Shown here: piece after piece, positions 56,069 to 64,000 of the stretch
How the letters are laid out: each line of letters begins with the position of its first letter
Numbering within the stretch: position 1 is the stretch's first letter
Assembly (NCBI GenBank): GCA_022707885.1
Contig: JAKIZT010000006.1
Coordinates: 62,001 to 126,000, forward strand
Direction of reading: 5' to 3'
Length of the DNA: 64,000 bases
From: Caldisericales bacterium
GTDB taxonomy: Bacteria > Caldisericota > Caldisericia > JAAYUI01
Made by a program: the position numbers and the translations under genes
The notes under the pieces: model-generated
Seen by the model: the letters and a program-made list of their open reading frames with translations, nothing else
The model's database searches: none
Told to the model about the DNA's origin: nothing

Positions 56069-56473
56069 ATGGATCAAAACAAAGAAAAGGTGATGGAGCT
56101 TCTCGAAATACTTAAAGACAAGGTAGATGCAATGTCCGAATATGAGATTGAATCGCTGGACACTATTATGGAACTGTTAGAAAATAAGAAAGACCTCATC
56201 GAAGATAAATCAGAGGAACTGCTGGAAGGGATTGAAGAAGTACGGGACCAGTTTGAGGACGATGATGATGAAAAAACTTTCTCATCCGTAGAAGAATTGG
56301 GTAAATGGGCCAGTGAAGTCTCACAAGCATCGAAAGAAATCTTGCTGGAAAACGTCATGGATGAATCACTTGACAAGGCAATCAGCATCATGAGGGAAAA
56401 CACAAGAAAACTCTACGCTTCTTTTGAAGAAACCGCGCAAGCACTCATGGGTCTGGTACGTCAGCAAGATTAA
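56069..56473 (+). CDS. Small acidic helical protein of unknown function
   Basis: Not recognised. The 134-aa protein is almost all helix-forming, with heptad-like Leu/Ile spacing over residues 5-65 and an acidic run FEDDDDEKT in the middle. It has no cysteine, no signal peptide and no membrane segment. An AAGGAGGAAAAA site precedes the ATG strongly, so it is well translated. It stands alone between a terminator and the small-RNA region. Confidence 0.7.
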   Translation: MDQNKEKVMELLEILKDKVDAMSEYEIESLDTIMELLENKKDLIEDKSEELLEGIEEVRDQFEDDDDEKTFSSVEELGKWASEVSQASKEILLENVMDESLDKAISIMRENTRKLYASFEETAQALMGLVRQQD

Positions 56474-56699
56474 TATTTGGAAATAAGAGTTTGCCAGATT
56501 GGAATGATTTTGAAAAAATGGCTTATAAAATAACATTCCATTATAAATTTCTAGACGCTAATTTTATTTTAATGGTCTAGTCAATCTTTTTCTGATTTCA
56601 CAATTTACTTAAACCAAATCAGATATATAAACCAAATATAGCTTGTATTCTTTGATTGGACTATAAATAGTCATATATTATTATTCACAATTGGTCCAT
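56474..56699. other. AT-rich intergenic stretch
   Basis: About 225 bases of AT-rich sequence. I find no open frame with a ribosome site, no strong hairpin and no clear promoter in it. Confidence 0.6.
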
Positions 56700-56721
56700 T
56701 TATATGGTGAAGTGGTTTCCT

Positions 56722-56809
56722 ATAATAAAAACCGAAACCCCCGCCGGAAGGGGGTTAGGGTTTTGGGGACAAGTCCCCGGAAAGAAAAGGAGGGTGGCCC
56801 AAATTGGGC
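56722..56809 (-). ncRNA. Candidate small RNA with exposed CU-rich linker
   Basis: Predicted minus-strand RNA of about 88 nt. Hairpin 1 is GCCCA/TGGGC at the 5' end (56797-56809). An unpaired CACCCTCCTTTTCTTTCC linker follows (56779-56796). Hairpin 2 is GGGGA-CTTG-TCCCC. The 3' hairpin (AACCCCC/GGGGGTT, extended by AAACC/GGTTT) is followed by TTATTAT, an intrinsic-terminator shape. The linker closely resembles the anti-Shine-Dalgarno tail of 16S rRNA. It has its own promoter and no ribosome-binding site or sensible ORF. I do not recognise it as a known family. Confidence 0.6.
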
Positions 56810-56815
56810 GAATCC

Positions 56816-56843
56816 ATCTTAAACCCTTGAGCCACCCTGTCAA
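56816..56843 (-). promoter_or_regulatory. Promoter of the candidate small RNA
   Basis: TTGACA (56838-56843) and TAAGAT (56816-56821) on the minus strand, 16-base spacer. The predicted start is near 56809, the first base of hairpin 1. Confidence 0.65.
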
Positions 56844-57080
56844 CAAATTTTGACTCCACTTAGCAAAAAATGCGAAGAAGCCCTCGGTTGAAATGTATTT
56901 TTTACTTTTGCATCTCAATAAATTTATCTTTTAATGATCAAAAAATTGTTCGTGTAAAAGAACACAGCATAAACCAATTCTATTTTTTAAAATTTACCGG
57001 AATAAATCTGTAATAATTCGTGAAGCTTTAATCAAAATGGGTACAAACTTAACTTTAAGCTTATCACAAACCAAATATCG
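56844..57080. other. AT-rich intergenic stretch upstream of the giant secreted protein
   Basis: About 235 bases, AT-rich, with several A/T tracts. I see no gene or strong secondary structure. It may serve as an upstream control region for the gene at 57162. Confidence 0.5.
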
Positions 57081-57108
57081 TTGAGTTTAAGGTTGTAGAC
57101 AATATACT
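57081..57108 (+). promoter_or_regulatory. Promoter of the giant secreted protein
   Basis: TTGAGT (57081-57086) and TATACT (57103-57108), 16-base spacer; the leader is about 47 nt and ends with an AAGGGGG ribosome site. Confidence 0.6.
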
Positions 57109-57161
57109 TCCTTCACAATGACCGGACCTATACATTTACAACAACCTAGAAGGGGGCTTTA

Positions 57162-60100
57162 ATGAAGAAATTTTTATCATTAACACTTTGTTTTGCGATC
57201 CTGATGGGGCTAGTGCCAGGTATATTTGTACCAGGAAAAGCAAGTGCCATCTCTGATTTTGGTGTTGTTCCAATTGGTGGACCACCAAAACTTGGTACCT
57301 TCGTGTCCCCCTCCTGGCTAGCATCAGAGGGCAACAGAGTTTACGTTGTCGAACAGGCAGCATTCAGAACACAGGCCATAATGAAGAACGGGCAATCCCA
57401 GTTTGCTTTTGGACTTCATGGAAACCATGAGGAACAGATAAGCGACCCAGGTGGAATATTTGCCTACAGGGAAAAAATATACTGGATTGACAGGTCACAG
57501 GGCAAAATTCTCGTCAGGGGTAACAAGGTGGATTCACCATACGAAGGCGAATTTATGCCATTCGGTACCGATGGCAGGAAGCTCCTTAAGAGACCGGAGG
57601 GTATCTGGATAGACCAAAACAGAATCTATATAGCCAACTCCGGCGCATCAAATGTTGTTGTACTGGACCTTAACGGTAAATTCATCAACACAATCGGTTC
57701 CAAGGGAATTGAAGATGGCAAGCTTGCCAGCCCAGCTGGTGTTTGTGTTGTAGCATCCAAGCTGTTTGTAACCGATCCACAAAATGGCAGGATAGTGATT
57801 TATGATCTTGATGGAAAATTCATCCAGAATATACCTTCTTCCCACCCATTTGGAATAACGGCTCTTGAAAACAAGATCTTTGTAACTGATGTCGTAGAAG
57901 GCAAAGTAACAATCCTTAATGCCGATGGTGCCACTGTTTCCTCATTTGGTTCTCCAGGATCAGGACAAGGACAGCTTGGCAATCCAATTGGAATCACAAT
58001 TCTTGACGGCAAGATTTATGTTGCATCAAACACAAACAACCGAGTAGATGTCTTCGAGCAAGACGGAAAATACGCAGGCATTTTGGGCCTTCCAGTTGAA
58101 CAGGCTGCCTCCTCCTTCGGCAGACCAGCAGGCGTGGCCTACAATGGCGAAAACATCGCGGTTGCGGATTCAGCAAGAAAAAAAGTCATAATCATGACCA
58201 AAGATGGCAAATTCATATCAGAATTTGGTTCATTTGGCACAGGCGAGAGGCAGTTTGCCAATCCGGTAGGCGTGGATTACAAGAATGACAACATCTACGT
58301 GGCAGATGCCGGAAATAACTGCATCAAACAATTCGCTGTAGATGGGACTTTCAAAAAGATAATCGGCTCGGCAGGAAACGGTAATGGAAAGTTGAATTCA
58401 CCCTCCGATGTTATCGTCGTTTCATCAGTCAACAAGATGTTTGTCGCTGACTCAGGAAACAATCTTGTCCAGATATTCTCGCTTTCAGGCGAGTTTATAA
58501 ACCAGTTTGGTGGATATGGCCAGGCCCCAGGCCAGTTTAGCAACCCAACCGGAATTTCATCAGACGGCAGAAAACTCATAGTTGCAGATTCCGGCAACTG
58601 CAGAATCCAGGAGTTCACACTTGACGGAAAACCAGTCAAACAGTATGGTTTCAAGGGTAGAGGGAAAGAACAGCTTTTCTTCCCGCAGGACTGCTCTTAT
58701 GACCAGTCAGGCAAAATTTACGTTTCTGACACCTACAATGACAGAGTAGTTGTTTTTGACAATGCTTCTGGAAGATCATGGATATATGGAAGATCAGGTG
58801 GGCCAGGAAGAGCAATTTTCTTCTCCAAATCAGGCGAAGAGAATGAAGATCCAAATGATTCCGATATCAAAAAAGCCGCTGGTTTCTTCTCTTTCCCAAG
58901 TGGTCTTGCATGTATCGAGGACAAGGTAATCGTCTCTGACACACAAAACCTCAGGCTCCAGTCTGTACCATATAGTGCAATTTTCGATTTCCCAAGAGTA
59001 GATACAGAATCATTCGTTCCACAAGCAAGCAACGTTGTATGGTTTACAGTTGCACCAAAAATACTCGATTTCGGTGTAATGCCAGTTGGAGAACAAGGGC
59101 AGAGAAGAATTGAAGTCCGCAACTGGACCGGTGGCGCGCTTACCGGCAAGATCGAAATCAGTCAGGAAATCCCGTTCCTGTCAGTAGATCCGCCAACATT
59201 TGTTGGTGATGTGAACTTCATCACTGTAAAAATAGACACCACGGGCATGACTGCTGGTCAAGCCATGAAAGCAGTTATCAAAATAGCTACAAACAAAGGC
59301 GATCAGAGTATTGAGGCAGTGGTTCTCCCATCTGATGGTTTTGGCTACTCGCTTCCTACCGAACAGGGTTACTTTGTCGAGATGGAATGCAACAATCCAG
59401 CAAGCCTCGAGATAACCATAAACCCGCAAAATGGTTTCGATCGCAACGTAAGCTTCAGCTACGCAATGCCGCTCAAAAAATGCCTCACTCATCCATCCGG
59501 AAAAGCTATCGAAAATTTGAGCTGCGATCCAAAAAATTTCGAATTATCCAACGTCACTGTTGAGTTCAAACCCTCATCCGTCAAGATAAGGGAGAACAAC
59601 AAAACAACGATGACGCTGATTCCAAAGGGCAATGTCACCCCTGGCATCTATGAAATTGCAGTAACAATGAACGGTGCAGGCGCAGCAAACAAAGAGGTCA
59701 AGTTTACCTTTATCCTTCTTGTAAACCCATGCACAAACCCGGCAACTGACAAACAGGTACCAAGGGCCTTGCTCACAGAAACCTTTACGGCTGTCTGGTG
59801 CCAGTACTGTCCATTCCACAGGGAAGGCCAGTACAGGATGGCCGAAGAGTATGGCTATGCAGAAATAATCCCCCTTGCATATTACTGTGATGCACCAAAC
59901 GACAACTCGGGAATGACCCAGGAATCACATCATTATCGTTATCGCTGGTACACTCAGGAAGGCCTCCCAACCACAATGTTTAACGGTGTATGGAACTTCT
60001 CTGAAGGTGACAAACCATTTGAACGCCAGGCCCCACCACCAGACAGGCTTCCAGACAGGAAGATGTCAGGAACATCATTCAGCTATCTTCGTTTCAAACA

Positions 60101-62753
60101 GAGAACCGAAACCTACAGACACATGACTTCGCCGCTTTCGTTGTTCCTTCAGGCAACGGTCGATGGTGATGAAGGTGATGCCTACCTCGAAATCAACACC
60201 TTGAGCGATGTTTCGGCATACAAAGATTTGAATGTGTATTTTGTGCTTGTGGAAAACAACGTTCTTTTCGAGGCAACAAACGGCGAGAGAGAGCACAGTC
60301 TCACGGTAATGAAGTTCCTCTACGAGAAAGGACAAAAAAAATCACCAAAAGACGAGGCACTCGGAGATCCAATCAGCCTTGCACCAGGAACAATAACAAA
60401 ACGTCGTATACACTTTGAAATGCCAGGCAAGAATTATGACTGGAAAACCCTCACAAAGAATTGTTATGTAGTCGCCTGGATACAAGACAACACAAAGAAA
60501 GAAATCCTCCAGAGCACAATGGTTGATCTCGCTCAGCCACTCCTCACCTCTTACACATTCAAACAGGTTAACGGTCAGCAAACCTCAGTCCAGGCAGGTT
60601 CTAGGGCAAACTTCAAGTATATCCTCACAAACACTGGAAACATATTCATGGATTTCGGCATTCAAATGACACACCTTGGTGGCCAGAACTGGGAAAACTC
60701 CCTGCTGGTAGACAAAGTACCATCGCCAAATGGCGGCAGGATAACACTCGACCCAATGCAGTCATCACTCATCGAGCTCTCAGTGGAAGTCCCGCCAGGA
60801 ACTTCTGAAGGCACCGAAAGTCTCTTCCGTGTTGAAGTCTCTGACGATCTTTCTGGGCAATCTTCCTCTTCAGATCTCAAACTAATGGTAGAACCAGCCA
60901 AACCACCGAGTTTCGAGGTTTCTTCAAGCACAAAATTCGTTGAAGTGGAGCCATCCACGGAAACATCATTCAATCTAACGATAAGTCCAATCAACGAGTA
61001 CAACAACCCGGTCACGCTCCAGCTTGCACAGGAATCCCAGAAATACTTCCAGGCAAAATTTGACCCGCCAAATGGCGTCCCGCCATTTGAAACAAAAGTA
61101 ACAATCAAATCTTCCGAGCAGCTCGAATACTTCGAAGATGGCTATAAAATCAAAATCCTCGCCACAGGTTCTGACGCCAGGGGTGAGAAAATCGAAAAAG
61201 ATATTACCATCAGGGCAACTGCAAAGCTTCTCAGCCTGACGCTCAAGCCAGAACGCAAAGTCATTACATCCTGCGCAATCAACGAAATCTGCCGTCAGAC
61301 CGAGATAAAGATCAATCTTGAGCCATCCGATATCCAGATCAAAGAAGCCAGGCTTGATTTTGTTTATGATGGCAGGTACCTCGAAGTGACAAACGTTTCT
61401 CTCGGGCAGATGATGACCCGTTTCGGCGAGATTGCAGACATGCAATATGACATCAAGCCTGACAGGGTGAACATAAGAATCAAGAGGGAAAAGGGCGTTG
61501 TGGCAGACCAGAACGAAAACACTATTGTTGCAATAACGCTTAAATCAACCGGTGACAAGATAGAGATCGACAATGTCAGGATAGGATTAGAAAATGTCAC
61601 TCTACTTTCCGCATCCGGAAGCAAAGCACTTACAAAGTCAGTTGATGAAACACTTTCTATCCGCAAAAACGCAAAACCACCTGTCATCCATCTTATCACT
61701 CCAATCCAGAAAGACTCCCCATGGCCAGATGAAGCTGAATCCAAGAGGAGATCGGAACAGGGCCAGATAAACTACCGCGACATCACCACAACAGAGAAAT
61801 CGCTCAAGATCTCAGGCAAGTGTGAATCTGAAGAAGGTGTAAAACAACTCACCCTTTTCATCGGTGGAAACAAGGTCCAGCTGGCAAACGATGGAACATT
61901 TGAATACACGATGAATCTCAAAGAAGGCTTCAACAACATCGTCATAGTCTGCCAGAACTTTACCGGTGAAAGCGATGGAATAATGGTAATTGCTGTTCTG
62001 GACACAACCCCACCGGACCTTGTAATCGACAAACCGAGTGAAGACCAGCTTTCTATGGATTACTCCATGACAACCGGCCAGAATTTTGTTGAATTCAGGG
62101 GTTTCACTGAAGAAAAGGCAAAAGTCACTGTTGCAGGTCGTCAGGTTCAGGTCAGGAAAGACCCAATAACAGACGATGAGACAAAGAGGTTTTTCTTTAC
62201 AGAAAAAGTCCAGCTTGTACAAGGTCTCAATGAAATAGAGATTTCGGCGTGCGACGAAAATGGCAATTGCAGGCAATATACTTACAAAATCACATACGAT
62301 CCAAAAGCTGGCAATGGAAAGACCACCAAAATAGAACTCTGGCTTGGCAAAGCATCCATGCTTGTTAATGGAGAAACTGTAAAACTTGTAACTGCACCAA
62401 CAGCATCCTCTCCACCACTTCCAAAAGATCTTGCAGGATCAACTTTCATGCCAATAGCCGAGGTCGCAAAAGCACTCGATGTCGAAGTCGGATGGAACGG
62501 CAAGGACAAGAAAGTCATGCTTACTCAACAGCTTGGCAATGGCAAGAAAAAAGTCATTGAGCTCTGGATCGGCAAGAAAACTGCAAAAATTGATGGCAAG
62601 GAAATTTTCATCGATTCAGCAAAGAAACTCTACCCAACAATTGTTGGCGGCAAAACACTTCTTCCATTGAGATTTGTTGGTGATGCCCTCGGCGCACTTG
62701 TCGAGTACGAATCCAAAACCAAAAAGATAACACTGACTTACCCAAAACCATAA
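57162..62753 (+). CDS. Giant secreted NHL-propeller / Omp28-like / cohesin-like / stalk-domain protein
   Basis: An 1863-aa secreted mosaic, the largest gene of the window. Signal peptide 1-29. NHL-type propeller repeats about 35-615, each with 'G.....P.GI....IYVAD..N.RV..F...G' wording. BACON-like module about 621-725 (PKILDFGVMPVGEQG). Ig-like region to about 860. Omp28-type thioredoxin fold about 865-1125 with the pair WCQYC at 880/883 and GLPTTMFNG. Two beta modules about 1126-1355. A cohesin-like domain about 1357-1503 (ARLDFVYDGRYLEVTNV). Two Ig-like modules opening with PPVIHLITP and DTTPPDLVIDKP. C-terminal stalk domain about 1720-1863 (TLLPLRFVGDALGALVEY). Probably an exported surface scaffold with redox and binding parts; function unknown. 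Confidence 0.82.
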   Translation: MKKFLSLTLCFAILMGLVPGIFVPGKASAISDFGVVPIGGPPKLGTFVSPSWLASEGNRVYVVEQAAFRTQAIMKNGQSQFAFGLHGNHEEQISDPGGIFAYREKIYWIDRSQGKILVRGNKVDSPYEGEFMPFGTDGRKLLKRPEGIWIDQNRIYIANSGASNVVVLDLNGKFINTIGSKGIEDGKLASPAGVCVVASKLFVTDPQNGRIVIYDLDGKFIQNIPSSHPFGITALENKIFVTDVVEGKVTILNADGATVSSFGSPGSGQGQLGNPIGITILDGKIYVASNTNNRVDVFEQDGKYAGILGLPVEQAASSFGRPAGVAYNGENIAVADSARKKVIIMTKDGKFISEFGSFGTGERQFANPVGVDYKNDNIYVADAGNNCIKQFAVDGTFKKIIGSAGNGNGKLNSPSDVIVVSSVNKMFVADSGNNLVQIFSLSGEFINQFGGYGQAPGQFSNPTGISSDGRKLIVADSGNCRIQEFTLDGKPVKQYGFKGRGKEQLFFPQDCSYDQSGKIYVSDTYNDRVVVFDNASGRSWIYGRSGGPGRAIFFSKSGEENEDPNDSDIKKAAGFFSFPSGLACIEDKVIVSDTQNLRLQSVPYSAIFDFPRVDTESFVPQASNVVWFTVAPKILDFGVMPVGEQGQRRIEVRNWTGGALTGKIEISQEIPFLSVDPPTFVGDVNFITVKIDTTGMTAGQAMKAVIKIATNKGDQSIEAVVLPSDGFGYSLPTEQGYFVEMECNNPASLEITINPQNGFDRNVSFSYAMPLKKCLTHPSGKAIENLSCDPKNFELSNVTVEFKPSSVKIRENNKTTMTLIPKGNVTPGIYEIAVTMNGAGAANKEVKFTFILLVNPCTNPATDKQVPRALLTETFTAVWCQYCPFHREGQYRMAEEYGYAEIIPLAYYCDAPNDNSGMTQESHHYRYRWYTQEGLPTTMFNGVWNFSEGDKPFERQAPPPDRLPDRKMSGTSFSYLRFKQRTETYRHMTSPLSLFLQATVDGDEGDAYLEINTLSDVSAYKDLNVYFVLVENNVLFEATNGEREHSLTVMKFLYEKGQKKSPKDEALGDPISLAPGTITKRRIHFEMPGKNYDWKTLTKNCYVVAWIQDNTKKEILQSTMVDLAQPLLTSYTFKQVNGQQTSVQAGSRANFKYILTNTGNIFMDFGIQMTHLGGQNWENSLLVDKVPSPNGGRITLDPMQSSLIELSVEVPPGTSEGTESLFRVEVSDDLSGQSSSSDLKLMVEPAKPPSFEVSSSTKFVEVEPSTETSFNLTISPINEYNNPVTLQLAQESQKYFQAKFDPPNGVPPFETKVTIKSSEQLEYFEDGYKIKILATGSDARGEKIEKDITIRATAKLLSLTLKPERKVITSCAINEICRQTEIKINLEPSDIQIKEARLDFVYDGRYLEVTNVSLGQMMTRFGEIADMQYDIKPDRVNIRIKREKGVVADQNENTIVAITLKSTGDKIEIDNVRIGLENVTLLSASGSKALTKSVDETLSIRKNAKPPVIHLITPIQKDSPWPDEAESKRRSEQGQINYRDITTTEKSLKISGKCESEEGVKQLTLFIGGNKVQLANDGTFEYTMNLKEGFNNIVIVCQNFTGESDGIMVIAVLDTTPPDLVIDKPSEDQLSMDYSMTTGQNFVEFRGFTEEKAKVTVAGRQVQVRKDPITDDETKRFFFTEKVQLVQGLNEIEISACDENGNCRQYTYKITYDPKAGNGKTTKIELWLGKASMLVNGETVKLVTAPTASSPPLPKDLAGSTFMPIAEVAKALDVEVGWNGKDKKVMLTQQLGNGKKKVIELWIGKKTAKIDGKEIFIDSAKKLYPTIVGGKTLLPLRFVGDALGALVEYESKTKKITLTYPKP

Positions 62754-62777
62754 AAAATCACCAATCACCGACACAAT

Positions 62778-62808
62778 AAAAAAGCCGCCCTAAAAGGGCG
62801 GCTTTTTT
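62778..62808 (+). terminator. Terminator of the giant secreted protein gene
   Basis: A 13-bp perfect stem (AAAAAAGCCGCCC), 5-base loop, ending in six T. Confidence 0.93.
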
Positions 62809-62897
62809 ATTTCTCAAGTTTTTAAAAAACTGGCCTCTTTCTTTATCCAGTCACTAAACTAAACTCAATCTTATTATCTTTAAAAAGGAGGTTCTAA

Positions 62898-64000
62898 TTG
62901 AAAAAACTAACATCAATTTTATTGGTAATCGCCTTTTTTATGGGCTTTCCTCCAGGAAAAATTATCGCCGAGGAAGAAGAGGTAGTCCTTTTTGACAATT
63001 TCACAACCTCATCACCAAACTTCAAAAATGGGCCATCAAAACCAACAGTGTTTAGCACATCCCAATCATACAAACTCATCGGAATTGGCACGGTCCATTT
63101 CAACGATGGCAAAGGCTCCAAGAATTATGGATCCATATCGCTCAAACATGAAGATGGAACCGTATACGGCCCCTGGCAATCGTACGCCCCGCCAGATATG
63201 AAAGGTTCAGAAAAGATCTTCTGGATAGTTGAGCCGAATGCTGTTATTAAACCCGGGAAATATGAGGTTATCGATTCTGATAAAGATACGTGGTCATGGA
63301 CCGACGAATCTGGCGGATGCGGACTTGCGCTCGTTGTCGCAAATAAAGTTCAAGAACAACCACCTCCTGGAGGTTCTGGAGGCAAAGCCAAAACAATAGT
63401 GTTGACGATTGGCAAGCCAACCATGCTCGTAAATGGGAAATCCGTAGAAATCGAAAAGGGAAAGAGTACTGGTCCAATCATTATAAAAGGAAGGACGATG
63501 CTCCCGATCAGGTCTCTAATCGAGACGCTGGGTGGGACCATTGACTGGAACAGCAAAGAGCAAAAAATAACCCTGAAACTCGAGGAAATATCAATCGAGC
63601 TCTGGATTGGCAAGAGCACTGCCAGAGTTTCCGGCCGAGAAATAACAATTGACCAGCCACCTGTAATAGTTGGCGGCAGGACAATGGTGCCACTCAGGTT
63701 TGTCTCGGAAAACCTCGGATGCTCGGTCGTCTGGGACGCCAAAACAAAAACTATCACCATCAAATTCTTTGGAAAACTCATCCTTGCAAATGGTGGCGTG
63801 GTAAATTCCGATGATGGATTGGCATCAATTGCTTTTCCGCCTGGCTTTGCATCAGCAAACACAAGCGCCTCGATAACAATGGTTTCGCCACCAAAAGACA
63901 ATTTCTCCGGGCAGTACAAGGTTGAGGTCTCAGCTGAAAAATCCGGCACTTTCAGTGTTGCAATCAAAGCAAATTTCAACTTTGATCCCAAAAAAGACCG
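62898..64000 (+). CDS. Secreted stalk-domain protein (partial, runs off right edge)
   Basis: The first 367 codons of an exported protein. The start is a TTG at 62898, 5-7 bases after AAAGGAGG, and gives a good signal peptide (MKKLTSILLVIAFFMGF). A beta-rich N-terminal domain (about 28-150) leads to a PPPGGSGG linker. A stalk domain follows (about 170-295; TMLPIRSLIETLGGTIDW and TMVPLRFVSENLGCSVVW). The stalk is internal here, not C-terminal, since another module starts after it (about 300 on: LILANGGVVNSDDG). That makes it the only stalk protein in the window whose domain order differs. Confidence 0.82.
   Translation, partial: MKKLTSILLVIAFFMGFPPGKIIAEEEEVVLFDNFTTSSPNFKNGPSKPTVFSTSQSYKLIGIGTVHFNDGKGSKNYGSISLKHEDGTVYGPWQSYAPPDMKGSEKIFWIVEPNAVIKPGKYEVIDSDKDTWSWTDESGGCGLALVVANKVQEQPPPGGSGGKAKTIVLTIGKPTMLVNGKSVEIEKGKSTGPIIIKGRTMLPIRSLIETLGGTIDWNSKEQKITLKLEEISIELWIGKSTARVSGREITIDQPPVIVGGRTMVPLRFVSENLGCSVVWDAKTKTITIKFFGKLILANGGVVNSDDGLASIAFPPGFASANTSASITMVSPPKDNFSGQYKVEVSAEKSGTFSVAIKANFNFDPKKD

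Follow-up and report, generated by a model that had tools for sequence, protein, structure and literature searches.

The conserved element at positions 56722-56849 of the window (the 64,000-nt stretch of Caldisericales DNA analysed here) is probably a minus-strand small RNA gene, a reading well supported by its promoter, its terminator and the pattern of variation among relatives. Sequence comparison indicates that the element is under selection and supports both the strand and the fold; transcription, targets (with gdhA as the best candidate) and repression are what we infer from these. The fuller reading, in which this minus-strand RNA would act mainly via a CU-rich linker on ribosome-binding sites, is given about an even chance overall.

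The source organism is an anaerobic-sludge bacterium of the class Caldisericia with a genome of 1.94 Mb in 88 contigs, in which the element is present as a single copy. It lies inside a 688-bp gap (56474-57161). A simple ORF call agrees with the original prediction that no gene-free gap of the window is longer; the gap ranking second (62754-63349) has 596 bp without genes. The flanking genes are both on the plus strand. One (56069..56473) encodes a 134-aa acidic protein without a Pfam match, which is genus-restricted among the 16 genomes searched, and the other (57162..62753) an 1863-aa secreted protein with NHL repeats and a copper amine oxidase N-domain, referred to below as the NHL gene. 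The latter has a conserved promoter-like sequence of its own, TTGAGT-N16-TATACT (57081-57108). The region upstream of it (57011-57161) is 89% conserved in G002, the most distant genome of the genus, and the same promoter-like sequence is found upstream of the NHL orthologue in another genus (G004, L050). Inverted repeats are also seen twice in the AT-rich part of the gap (56495-56580), as GGAATG..CATTCC and as TAGAC..GTCTA, and their arms show little or no change among the four genomes.

On the minus strand, a -35 element TTGACA (56838..56843), kept in 4/4 genomes along with the conserved upstream sequence CAAAATTTG, is separated by a 16-bp spacer from a -10 element TAAGAT (56816..56821). The promoter was scored with a position weight matrix (PWM) trained on 27 regions upstream of tRNA genes of the same genome, 24 of which were fitted, giving a consensus of TTGACA and TATAAT with a spacer that was most commonly 16. 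The minus-strand promoter reached a score of 14.4, identical in all four genomes and around the middle of the range of the organism's own tRNA promoters. This value was attained by 1/2000 dinucleotide shuffles of the element and by 26/1000 shuffles of a 420-bp region, and just 11 sites across the window scored at least 13.5, two of which are promoters of tRNA genes that it contains.

From this promoter, of the sigma-70 type, a stand-alone RNA of about 85 nt would be transcribed, starting near 56809 as judged from the position of the -10 element and ending at an intrinsic terminator near 56724. The three hairpins and the linker that the original prediction had placed downstream of the promoter were all recovered on the minus strand. 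The predicted fold begins with a small 5′ hairpin, GCCCA-AUU-UGGGC (56797..56809), followed by the 18-nt CU-rich linker CACCCUCCUUUUCUUUCC (56779..56796) with its anti-Shine-Dalgarno-like core CCUCCUUU, by the invariant hairpin 2, GGGGACUUGUCCCC (56765..56778; GGGGA-CUUG-UCCCC), and by a terminator-like hairpin, AAAACC..AACCCCC-UUCCGGC-GGGGGUU..GGUUUU, with UUUUUAUU after it (56722..56764, stem 56764-56728). This last hairpin and its U run are on the same strand as the minus promoter. The RNA has a predicted folding energy of -33.9 kcal/mol (z = -2.7 vs shuffles), and the linker, which would be displayed between the 5′ hairpin and hairpin 2, has an unpaired probability of about 0.9 and is unpaired in the predicted folds of both the window's own sequence and that of G002.

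The four genomes of the genus share the element at the same location with 95-99% identity. The original prediction had made its case depend on conservation in relatives with the same flanking genes, and all three same-genus relatives keep both genes together with a nearly unchanged element. In G002, the element is 95% identical over 126 bp, whereas identity is 66% in the upstream part of the gap, 61% in its downstream part and 70% in neighbouring coding sequence. Five of the six substituted columns fall within the 22 spacer/discriminator positions (P = 0.0006) and none within the -35 and -10 hexamers, and the linker is identical in three genomes with one C-to-T change in G003. With only four near-identical sequences and these six columns, compensatory changes were not found in any pair. 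A conserved peptide on either strand was ruled out by single-base indels (G001 and G002), by stop codons interrupting several frames and by the substitution pattern. A covariance model did not find the element in the other 50 of the 54 Caldisericota genomes searched; a weak match in G014 (22 bits) falls in an apparent transport-permease coding region and was taken as chance. A DNA-pattern search of genome contigs returned the same three relatives only, and one viral contig match to the pattern was discarded as expected by chance and as a misfit to the covariance model. The public records in which the element occurs are metagenome bins of Caldisericia/Caldisericales, of which two bear the name Go_SlDig, and no match was found among the plasmids and phages searched. 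In G004, of the same family, the NHL orthologue is present with no element upstream.

The minus-strand small-RNA model leaves two features unaccounted for, both absent from the original prediction. One is a larger inverted repeat (56791..56838) spanning the promoter spacer and the 5′ part of the RNA, with 8 perfect pairs or 12 with a wobble, whose significance is modest (22/1000 shuffles gave one as long). The other is a conserved plus-strand TATAAT (56721..56726) that faces the element, so that an antisense transcript is possible. It is part of TTTCCTATAAT (56716-56726), which is invariant though outside the minus-strand RNA, and is preceded by a conserved plus-strand block, TATTCACAATTGGTCCATTTAT (56680..56701), in the position of a -35 zone, the core of which is unique in 464 kb of the organism's own sequence. 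The 14 bases between the two are fixed in length and only 43% identical in G002, as in promoter spacers, and the whole arrangement resembles a second promoter facing the element. A plus-strand RNA starting from this TATAAT, with the same hairpins and either free or forming a long leader towards the NHL gene, would carry a purine-rich linker, GGAAAGAAAAGGAGG, as a Shine-Dalgarno mimic or protein-binding stretch, and the plus-strand folds are of about equal stability. Such an RNA is nevertheless unlikely, given a promoter score of only 9.3 (6.3 in G002), no TTGACA-like -35 box in the promoter-like region, no terminator on the plus strand and, for a leader, the NHL gene's own conserved promoter. 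The strand is further indicated by two changes of G002 in the stem of the larger hairpin, which turn G-U into G-C pairs when read on the minus strand, whereas the same positions on the plus strand form A.C mismatches in the other genomes.

The presence of conserved promoter-like regions on both outer edges of the element could also point to two convergent, fully overlapping RNAs, the plus transcript being a perfect antisense that titrates the minus-strand small RNA or disturbs its transcription; the weakness of the plus promoter speaks against this arrangement, which we consider rather improbable. A DNA-level or protein-bound element (an operator array or a bidirectional terminator), with inverted repeats that do not act as free RNA, would accommodate the repeat straddling the -10 element and start site as well as the several conserved blocks in the gap. 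It is very unlikely, however: operators would hardly call for near identity over 126 bp that extends to the loops and the unpaired linker of 18 nt, a terminator could do without a conserved sequence, and the promoter and terminator stand in the right order. A more speculative scheme that would use both leftover features is a genus-specific two-strand RNA switch, in which the promoter spacer is complementary to the 5′ part of the RNA, so that read-through transcripts would hide part of the linker and the short transcript would expose it, countered by convergent antisense from the plus-strand TATAAT; this too is highly improbable.

The minus-strand small RNA was compared with known systems. No Rfam family matched the element at the gathering score, and with E values up to 5 only Hrs1 and IS128 were retrieved, both on the plus strand and far below the cut-off. 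Membership of RsaE/RoxS was rejected, there being no covariance-model match in Rfam. Streptococcal csRNAs have two hairpins joined by a pyrimidine-rich linker. They occur as multiple CiaR-controlled copies, whereas the Caldisericia element is a single copy with no sequence relation detected to them. The csRNAs block translation by pairing with the region from the Shine-Dalgarno sequence to the start codon of comC mRNA (PMC4507080), and C-rich small RNAs of Firmicutes (RsaE/RoxS, FsrA, CsfG) block ribosome-binding sites through C-rich boxes (PMC3861533, PMC8216469). Like the latter, the Caldisericia RNA is predicted to be short with an exposed C-rich stretch and a terminator; unlike them, it is found in a different phylum, shows no Rfam match to those families, carries its CU stretch within a linker that reads CACCCUCCUUUUCUUUCC and has targets that are predicted only. 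The resemblance of the linker core to the 16S rRNA 3′ tail, noted in the original prediction, held for the organism's own tail, GAUCACCUCCUUUCUAAGG, with which it shares CCUCCUUU exactly; the linker differs in one extra U after the core, in its flanks and in not being within ribosomal RNA. Of the traits of trans-acting C-rich or anti-Shine-Dalgarno small RNAs, an own promoter and an intrinsic terminator are seen at the level of sequence, and an accessible C/U-rich stretch complementary to Shine-Dalgarno sequences is computed. A literature search found no small-RNA paper for Caldisericota, and the element looks like a new small-RNA family of a familiar type, outside those described, with a mechanism that is proposed below.

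The original prediction had cast this RNA as an anti-Shine-Dalgarno repressor, of which the small RNA itself is supported and the specificity is less so. Among 343 predicted genes from 464 kb, linker binding stronger than -12 kcal/mol was calculated for 32% of ribosome sites vs 5% of randomly chosen windows. Linkers shuffled at constant composition were, however, nearly as good (mean binding to ribosome sites -9.7 ± 0.5 vs -10.6 kcal/mol for the real linker), so that most of this binding would be expected from any CU-rich RNA, and the anti-Shine-Dalgarno role is plausible but only partly supported. The proposed search for targets at ribosome-binding sites likewise had a mixed outcome, with no excess of linker complements over the reversed pattern in the whole genome (16 vs 14) but one strong conserved candidate. 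This is the ribosome site of gdhA, the best conserved linker-complement match at such a site, with a predicted pairing of -19.8 kcal/mol (AAAGAAAAGGAGAGUG; 12 consecutive pairs spanning the Shine-Dalgarno sequence) in 4/4 genomes. The 448-aa protein encoded behind it was identified from its sequence as an NADP-type glutamate dehydrogenase. Conservation of the gdhA site is a lead rather than independent evidence or proof, since high conservation extends over the entire ptb-gdhA spacer, which is almost unchanged in the four members of the genus. This spacer (L097 1-1600; G000:C22 near 58612) also has a hairpin, GCAGGC..GCCTGC, immediately ahead of the Shine-Dalgarno sequence and is possibly a regulated leader of glutamate dehydrogenase. 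The strongest predicted pairing, at window site 25067 (-22.0 kcal/mol), was rejected as its extended pairing is lost in relatives, and the NHL gene and the 134-aa protein gene were set aside as targets for their ordinary pairing (-11.7 and -13.4 kcal/mol, respectively, in short windows).

In the mechanism proposed for the minus-strand RNA, the linker would most likely pair in trans with purine-rich Shine-Dalgarno regions and so, independently of Hfq, reduce translation from certain mRNAs. Hfq was not found in the five genomes searched, with a completeness of about 90% for the window's own genome and about 70% for two others, by a search that was positive in 5/14 control genomes. If real, the element would provide Caldisericota with an Hfq-independent translational regulator of much the same build as the C-rich small RNAs known from Firmicutes, which would suggest a repeated origin of anti-Shine-Dalgarno-like small RNAs in distant lineages, and the gdhA candidate offers a testable link to glutamate metabolism.
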